DNA from: Myxococcales bacterium
GTDB taxonomy: Bacteria > Myxococcota > Myxococcia > Myxococcales > Myxococcaceae
DNA: 64,000 nucleotides
NCBI GenBank assembly: GCA_016191815.1
Contig: JACPVI010000014.1
Location: 1 to 64,000, forward strand
Direction of reading: 5' to 3'
Of the stretch, positions 24,997 through 26,908 are shown piece after piece; positions within the stretch are counted from its first letter, which is position 1, and each line of letters begins with the position of its first letter. The notes under the pieces are model-generated. The model saw only the letters and a list, made by a program, of their open reading frames with translations, made no database searches and was not told the origin of the DNA. The position numbers and the translations under genes are program-made.

Positions 24997-25019
24997 CTCC
25001 AGGGGGCTACGCCCTGGAG
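24997..25019 (-). terminator. Hairpin at the end of the DsbA-like gene
   Basis: Perfect 8-bp inverted repeat CTCCAGGG/CCCTGGAG with a 7-nt loop, overlapping the stop codon of the DsbA-like gene. It lacks a clear U run on either strand, so intrinsic termination is only a suggestion. Confidence 0.4.
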
Positions 25020-25621
25020 CGCGCCCCCGCCCGCCGCGCGGCCTCGGCGATCACCTCGTATGGCTGGCAGCCGACGACCACCTCTCCGCCGAGGAAGAGG
25101 GTAGGCACGCCGGTGACTCCTTGCTCGTCTGCTTCGGCGCGGGTGTCGTCCACTCGCCGCAAGTAGGCGCGCTGGTCGGCGGCGACCAGCGCCAACCCTC
25201 GATCCAGGCCGGCCTGGGCGGCGATCTCGCGCAACGAAGTGTCGTCCTCCAGGCTATGGCCGAGGCGCCAGTACGCGTCCATGGCGGCGGCGCGGAAGTC
25301 GTCCAACCTTCCTTCATCGCGGGCGTACTCGGCCATGGCGAGCGCCCGCCGGGTGTTGGGGAGCCAGTCGTTGGTCCTCATGTCGCGGATGCCGAAGCGA
25401 GCCGCGAAGGCCGCCAGGTACTCGCGCATCGGGCCGAGGCGGGAAGGCGGGAAGTAGCTGGAGAGCGCCACTCCTCCTCGCGGGGTCTTGGGGTGTAGCT
25501 CGAACCCACGCCAATCCAGCTCGATCTCGAAGTCTCTCCGCAGCCTGACCAGGCTGCTCTGCTCCGCGATGAAGCAGAAAGGTCAGACGAAGTCGGAGTA
25601 CAGCCTCGCGCGCACGATCAT
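25007..25621 (-). CDS. Probable selenoprotein: DsbA-family oxidoreductase with UxxC active site
   Basis: Reading from ATG 25621, the frame gives MIVRARLYSDFV, then TGA (25583-25585), then PFCFIAEQ and an uninterrupted thioredoxin-fold DsbA/FrnE-like protein of 204 residues to the stop at 25007. In this family the same place reads DFVCPFC, so TGA sits exactly at the first Cys of the CxxC active site. The rest of the protein is intact and family-like (RRALAMAEYARDEGRL, MDAYWRLGHSLEDD, cis-Pro loop GVTGVPTLFL). A SECIS-like stem-loop begins 26 nt after the TGA. Selenocysteine insertion explains all of this; a nonsense mutation is the alternative. A conventional gene call would start only at GTG 25471 and lose the active site. 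No strong ribosome site is seen. Confidence 0.75.
25540..25557 (-). promoter_or_regulatory. SECIS-like hairpin
   Basis: On the mRNA the stretch reads GCAGCCU-GGUC-AGGCUGC: a perfect 7-bp stem with a GGUC tetraloop. Its first loop base lies 33 nt past the in-frame UGA. The loop has the G and U that SelB recognises in known bacterial SECIS elements, and the Escherichia coli fdhF element also presents GGUC in its apical loop. The hairpin lies wholly inside the coding sequence, as is usual in bacteria. Confidence 0.65.
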
Positions 25622-25678: not shown

Positions 25679-26908
25679 CTAATGTGGCTCGGCCGAATCG
25701 GGAGCCGCCCTCCCCGGGGCCACCGCCCCGCGCTCCCCGCCGATCGCCTCCCCGGCCTCCTGGGGCACAAGGTGCCTGGGGAGGAAGAACGCCCCGGCGA
25801 TCAACGTCGGCACCACCGCGCTGCCGATCACCACCGCCACCAGGTGGGAGTATTGCTCCTGGCTGACGATGCCGTGCGAGTAGCCGAACAGCGCCGAGAT
25901 GGTCCCGAACGTCAGCCCGGTGGACATCAAGAGCGTGTAGTACCAGCGCTCATTCCTCTCCCGGCGAAAGCGGGCGATCACCGGGAACAACCCGAAGATC
26001 TTCGAGCCCACCTTGCCCGCCAGGAGCACCACGAAGGCGAGCGGCGCGGCGGCCAGCGCCGGCAGGGCCACCAATGAGCCGGCGCGCAAGAAGTAGAAGG
26101 GGCTCAAAAAGCCGACCGTCAGGGTGCGGAGGCGCCGCATGAAAACGGGGTCGCCTCCCAGAGTCCGGGTGAGGACCATGCCGGCGATGTACGCCGGGAG
26201 CACCGGCTCGCTGCCGGCCCACAGAGCCAGCCCGCCGAGCCCGAACAGCACGAAGAGCACCCACTTGGTCCGGAAGGCCGCCGTCTTGTGCGCATACCGT
26301 TCGATCAGACGAGGCGTCACCAGCGGCAGGCACACGAACGCGGCGGCGCAGGCTCCGGCGAAGACGAGGGTGCGCCAGGTGAACGGCGCGAACAACAATC
26401 CGAGGACGATCACGGTGCCGAGGTCGTTGACGAAGCATGCGCCGAGAATGCCCTTGCCAAACTCGGTCCGGTTGAAGCCGGTCTCGAGCATCACCGCATA
26501 GACCACCGCCATCGAGGTGGTGGAGAGCGCGATGCCCGCCAGCCAACTCGCCGGCCCGGACCAACCGAGGACGAAGCGAGCCAGCGCCGCGCACCCGAGG
26601 AACGGCGCCAAGAAGCCCACCAGGCCGACCACGGTGACTTCCTTCCACTTCTTCCGCATCACCGAGGGCTCCAGCTCCGCTCCTGCCAAGAAGGTGAGCA
26701 GCGTCGCGCCCGCGCTGGCGACGAACAGCAGCCAAGGCGCCTTGGCGCCGGTGGCGTCCGGGCCAAAGGCGTGGACGATGGCCGCCGACGCGAGCATCCC
26801 CACCACGATCTCCGTCAAGGCGACCGAGACGCGTAGCCTCGAGGCGGCGAACGTCGCGACGAGCGCCAGCCCGACCCAGATGCTCGCGGTGATGAGCGCC
26901 TGTTCCAC
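25679..26908 (-). CDS. CPA2-type cation:proton antiporter
   Basis: The product is 409 residues from GTG 26908 behind GAGGAGG. It is a polytopic membrane protein of about 12 hydrophobic helices. Family features are the N-terminal VSVALTEIVVGMLASA, GATLLTFLAGAELEPSV, the unwound helix region with STTSMAVVYAVMLETG, and the ion-binding pair in GACFVNDLGTVIVLG. The Asn-Asp pair is usual for this Na+(K+)/H+ exchanger superfamily. No C-terminal TrkA nucleotide-binding domain is present. The DsbA-like selenoprotein gene follows 57 bp downstream on the same strand. Confidence 0.85.
   Translation of the reverse strand: MEQALITASIWVGLALVATFAASRLRVSVALTEIVVGMLASAAIVHAFGPDATGAKAPWLLFVASAGATLLTFLAGAELEPSVMRKKWKEVTVVGLVGFLAPFLGCAALARFVLGWSGPASWLAGIALSTTSMAVVYAVMLETGFNRTEFGKGILGACFVNDLGTVIVLGLLFAPFTWRTLVFAGACAAAFVCLPLVTPRLIERYAHKTAAFRTKWVLFVLFGLGGLALWAGSEPVLPAYIAGMVLTRTLGGDPVFMRRLRTLTVGFLSPFYFLRAGSLVALPALAAAPLAFVVLLAGKVGSKIFGLFPVIARFRRERNERWYYTLLMSTGLTFGTISALFGYSHGIVSQEQYSHLVAVVIGSAVVPTLIAGAFFLPRHLVPQEAGEAIGGERGAVAPGRAAPDSAEPH

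Follow-up and report, generated by a model that had tools for sequence, protein, structure and literature searches.

The window, that is, the whole 64,000-nucleotide stretch of DNA that was analysed, contains a minus-strand frame of 204 codons which is open throughout except for a single internal TGA at codon 13, in the context DFV-TGA-PFC (Table 1). Standard gene calling yields the part from GTG 25471 to 25007 only, a product of 154 residues from which the active site is missing. An earlier first-pass annotation of this DNA had described both a frame interrupted by one TGA and a truncated call without the catalytic site, and a re-reading of the open reading frames reproduced the two observations. 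Annotation is prone to truncate the gene or to label it a pseudogene.

Table 1. Coordinates of the selenoprotein gene and of the features within it
Feature	Position in window	Strand	Basis or remark
FrnE-type DsbA-family selenoprotein gene (predicted), 204 aa	25007..25621	minus	ATG 25621, stop TAG 25007-25009
UGA (Sec) codon 13, first position of UPFC	25583..25585	minus	TGA/Cys column in orthologs
Resolving Cys-16 of UPFC	25574..25576	minus	invariant in 45/45 aligned clade members, also in A2
Second, 5' hairpin (TCTGCTTC/GGAGCAGA, 8 bp)	25558..25578	minus	MFE fold, between UGA and SECIS-like hairpin
SECIS-like hairpin GCAGCCT-GGTC-AGGCTGC	25540..25557	minus	ortholog conservation, peak synonymous constraint
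Third conserved cysteine, Cys-185 (VVGCQPYE)	25067..25069	minus	clade alignment

Genes for a Na+/H+ exchanger and for a protein kinase are the neighbours in the window. The exchanger-family gene (25679-26908), likewise on the minus strand, stops 57 bp before the selenoprotein gene begins, and the two genes could be co-transcribed. No conserved neighbours were found, as the flanking genes of the window do not lie beside the orthologs and only generic kinases were matched; because the relatives do not share the neighbouring genes, the context gives no functional hint.

Family, fold and key residues of the product

With the TGA read as selenocysteine, the Pfam family DSBA (PF01323) is matched from end to end (3.7e-30, 105.6 bits against a curated cut-off of 25.6), and the best solved relatives by sequence are D. 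radiodurans FrnE (1.3e-21) and S. coelicolor SCO1869. No family model of NCBIfam reaches its cut-off, the top one being NF041057 with 30 bits against 190. An AlphaFold2 model, built from an alignment of 36 sequences, has a mean pLDDT of 96.9, and a Foldseek search with this model returned FrnE first, followed by HCCA isomerases and kappa GSTs (TM 0.73-0.78). In the model, residue 13 immediately precedes helix 14-21, which places the active site UPFC in front of that helix, and model and alignment together show Pro-173, at the position of the cis-proline, to be invariant. The Pfam match, the FrnE matches and the alignment of homologues agree with the first-pass annotation in the DsbA/FrnE-like identity of the product and in the placement of the TGA at the first cysteine of CxxC.

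D. radiodurans FrnE (PDB IDs: 5cnw, 5co3, 5cp1) superimposes with a TM of 0.86 at 28% identity, its CPWC being aligned to UPFC, so that it has a cysteine where the present protein has selenocysteine. FrnE has in addition a C-terminal CxxxxC, which is absent here: besides Sec-13, cysteines occur only at positions 16 and 185, and instead of the pair there is the single conserved Cys-185, found in 29 of the 33 Sec and eight of the nine Cys orthologs having a residue at this position. Some FrnE proteins lack the CxxxxC too, a feature that is frequent in the subfamily without being a defining one (PMC8945050). The same source describes FrnE proteins as cytoplasmic. The present product opens directly with beta-strand 1; it has no signal peptide-like extension, and a start at strand 1 leaves no space for one. 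Sequence and model taken together, the product is most likely a cytoplasmic thiol-disulfide oxidoreductase of the FrnE type, with the thioredoxin fold of the DsbA family.

The place of HCCA isomerases and kappa GSTs as next fold matches is what would be expected of a selenoprotein serving mainly another activity, for example a glutathione-dependent one like that of the HCCA isomerases or kappa-class GSTs that share the fold. FrnE, however, is clearly better by sequence as well as by fold, the UxxC pair with its invariant resolving cysteine points to dithiol chemistry, and HCCA isomerases are not known to depend on a CxxC, which counts further against such an activity; it is considered unlikely.

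Selenocysteine machinery and the UGA column

A search for selA, selB, selC and selD had been proposed in the first-pass annotation as a check, and all four are present in the genome to which the window belongs (89 contigs, 98.8% complete): selA (570 bits), selB (639 aa, 334 bits over cut-off), a tRNA-Sec (77.9 bits, anticodon TCA) and selD (363 bits). As a discriminator of Sec and Cys genomes selB was of no use among the 60 relatives, as it lies over cut-off in 44 of them, including the Cys carriers G014 and G029. The selD gene (L136, G000:C6:22128-23057, minus strand) has an in-frame TGA of its own, in the context RCAG-TGA-AAKI, and is itself a selenoprotein gene; the position of this TGA is the usual Sec site of SelD.

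Orthologs were searched for in the 60 relatives, in 195 genomes of the phylum and in a named genome collection. One clade (support 100/98) comprises 35 distinct orthologs with TGA and 10 with cysteine. Across its 45 members column 13 alternates solely between TGA and Cys codons, which is what the first-pass annotation had expected of homologues if the gene encoded a selenoprotein. The named members of the TGA clade belong to Myxococcota, Chloroflexota, Gemmatimonadota, Acidobacteriota and Fidelibacterota, many of them being MAGs, so that single phylum labels may err. On a tree of 71 rows at least eight changes between Sec and Cys are needed, six of which are forced by well-supported branches. 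Both forms occur even within genus g15, in which L141 and L150 have Sec and L016, L017, L146 and L149 have Cys, and having such closely related forms in one genus makes the group a good natural setting in which to study the reasons for retention or loss of Sec. A plasmid search returned relatives of less than 60% identity only; the best among the matches listed has about 30%, and several are annotated as DsbA family.

Orthologs with Sec conserve GTC as the valine codon that precedes the UGA (window positions 25586-25588). Its pairwise identity is 0.88 in the Sec set against 0.41 expected, and 0.31 in the Cys set. The constancy of GTC is possibly an effect of decoding context.

Non-programmed readthrough of the UGA, or a general reassignment of TGA, would have near-cognate tRNAs insert tryptophan or cysteine with no part played by SelB, and readthrough is tolerated in some GC-rich genomes. 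Against it, the genome has a dedicated tRNA-Sec together with selA and selB, and the restriction of column 13 to TGA and Cys codons fits selenocysteine. Moreover, TGA terminates other genes here, for example selD, and because selD ends in TGA this codon is a normal stop in the genome. Readthrough or reassignment is accordingly given very little probability, and the decoding of the UGA as selenocysteine is preferred.

The hairpin downstream of the UGA

The SECIS-like hairpin consists of seven perfect pairs and a loop of 4 nt whose first base is the 33rd after the TGA (a spacing of 32 nt), with a stability of -11.1 kcal/mol. It was found as the first-pass annotation had drawn it, as a perfect 7-bp hairpin with a GGUC loop after the UGA, and it is included in the MFE fold of the region downstream of the TGA. 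The published bSECIS model specifies a loop of 3-9 nt, a stem of 4-16 bp, a G in the first two loop positions, a spacing of 16-37 nt and an MFE of -7.5 or lower (PMC13188914), and the hairpin lies within all of these limits with its GGTC loop, stem length, spacing and stability. A search of Rfam with E values of up to 5 turned up neither a SECIS nor any other relevant RNA at the locus.

As a control for chance, every TGA triplet in the window was assessed, 1077 on the two strands together at 70% GC. Of these, 12.8% have a perfect bSECIS-like stem with an energy of -7.5 kcal/mol or lower behind them, and 2.6% have one as stable as -11.1 kcal/mol. Only three, the studied one included, are followed by at least seven pairs and a 4-nt loop starting with GG. 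Taken alone, the hairpin is modestly unusual and weak evidence for selenocysteine. It had been argued in the first-pass annotation that coincidence would hardly produce both a TGA at the one replaceable cysteine and a suitable hairpin behind it. The hairpin by itself carries less weight than was implied there, given the 2.6% in the chance control.

The conservation of the hairpin together with TGA and its absence together with Cys are decisive. At least five of the seven pairs and a loop starting with GG are kept in 34 of the 35 Sec orthologs and in none of the 10 Cys orthologs of the same clade, which answers the first-pass suggestion to look for the hairpin in TGA-bearing relatives. The loop is GGTC in 33 of the 34 and GGAC in the remaining one (L058). 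Stem pairs have changed on both sides at two places, the outer pair from GC to CG in four sequences and the fifth pair from CG to TA once (L069). Synonymous constraint in the Sec set peaks at codons +9 to +14, over the hairpin, which form the strongest window in the gene; the excess over the expectation from codon usage amounts to 0.45-0.48 there, compared with a mean of 0.05 and an SD of windows of 0.08. In the Cys orthologs the same codons show an unremarkable excess of 0.17. A pair test on the tree had only three supported independent Sec/Cys pairs to draw on, of which two agree with the hairpin, none speaks against it and one is undecided.

The exception among the Sec orthologs is L071, in which the TGA is present and the standard hairpin is absent, a weak hairpin shifted by 5 nt being found instead. 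One MAG (Myxococcota MAG.533) has two TGA paralogs, L071 and L056, and L071 is sister to Cys forms; it is perhaps an intermediate of a change from Sec to Cys.

The 5' hairpin between the UGA and the SECIS-like hairpin was also considered for a role in selenocysteine insertion and was rejected, its pairs being equally kept in the Cys orthologs apart from one. Since the Cys orthologs keep it as well, the protein sequence encoded there accounts for its conservation.

A rival reading, as a pseudogene or a sequencing error, takes the TGA for a nonsense mutation, or for a TGC read wrongly, in what was once a Cys enzyme, and the hairpin for a coincidence. It would call for a single base, which is all that separates TGA from TGC, and for an equally stable hairpin such as 2.6% of the TGAs of this GC-rich window have. 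Against it, the identical TGA recurs in 35 distinct orthologs of at least five phyla, which for practical purposes rules out a sequencing error, the remaining frame is intact, and the hairpin accompanies the TGA under synonymous constraint; the probability of this reading is negligible.

The selenoprotein reading of the gene, as put forward in the first-pass annotation, is thus supported, with machinery, TGA/Cys column and hairpin conservation all in its favour. With a confidence close to certainty, the sequence evidence points to a functional cytoplasmic FrnE-type selenoprotein with the active site Sec13-Pro-Phe-Cys16.

Proposed mechanism and related selenoproteins

In the proposed mechanism, SelB-GTP would carry Sec-tRNA-Sec(UCA), the machinery for which is evident from the genome sequence. 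SelB would bind the GGUC-loop hairpin, which begins 25 nt 3' of the UGA, and this codon would then be read as selenocysteine and not as a stop; without selenocysteine the product would be a peptide of 12 residues. Model and alignment put Sec-13 at the N terminus of helix 1, where it would be the attacking residue, and likewise give the positions of Cys-16 as the putative resolving residue and of Pro-173 as a proline of the cis-proline type, the chemistry of all three being modelled on FrnE and DsbA. Most likely, disulfides of cytosolic substrates would be reduced or isomerised under oxidative stress, and this faster than by a Cys form. D. radiodurans FrnE is a proposed cytoplasmic disulfide reductase (PMC8945050), and by analogy the present protein may likewise reduce or isomerise disulfides in the cytosol.

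Two more TGA lineages of the same Pfam family, with the motif UPWC, occur in the same order (L025 with L028-L034, and L035-L036). Their SECIS-like hairpins are of other sequence, for example TCGGCCTC-GGC-GAGGTCGA, and lie 20-21 nt after the TGA in both lineages, in contrast to the 32 nt of the 45-member clade. In L026, a Cys member among the UPWC lineages, the stem is still there and the loop is GCC. The differing hairpins across the three Sec lineages hint at independent gains of selenocysteine. A more comprehensive reading, that FrnE-type selenocysteine was gained several times independently, that a second hairpin precedes the stem-loop of the clade and that Cys-185 takes over regeneration in place of CxxxxC, is tentative and, taken jointly, rather doubtful.

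A 2005 study of the Sargasso Sea described DsbA-like UxxC selenoproteins of COG2761 (PMC1088965), and COG2761 is also the COG of D. radiodurans frnE (PMC1978522). The family was found again as 'DsbA 1' in the GOS data in 2008 (PMC2398784), DsbA-like selenoproteins were counted in 41 organisms (PMC5029168), and 'DsbA-like protein form 1' appears in a 2026 review (PMC13188914). The published family has PF01323, the UxxC motif and a bacterial SECIS after the UGA in common with the present gene, and, judging by motif, Pfam/COG and genus, its members NIP15863.1 and AACY01178397 may fall in this clade. From the same phylum, a DsbA-like selenoprotein of Anaeromyxobacter dehalogenans was listed by Zhang et al. 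2006 (PMC1794560); family, motif and genus suggest that it is the same gene, and TGA orthologs sharing the hairpin, at about 50-60% identity, occur in Anaeromyxobacter relatives. The gene studied here is a genuine further member of the DsbA-like UxxC kind that has already been published, and presumably shares the exact clade of the published members. It adds a well-supported selenoprotein and defines a widespread orthologous group.

The hairpin resembles the SECIS of E. coli fdhF in having a GGTC apical loop on a short stem 3' of the UGA. On the other hand, the loop follows 18 nt after the UGA in fdhF and 32 nt here, the stem sequences differ, and two hairpins are found here where fdhF has one long one. 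The group is also suited to tests of a SECIS placed unusually far from its UGA.
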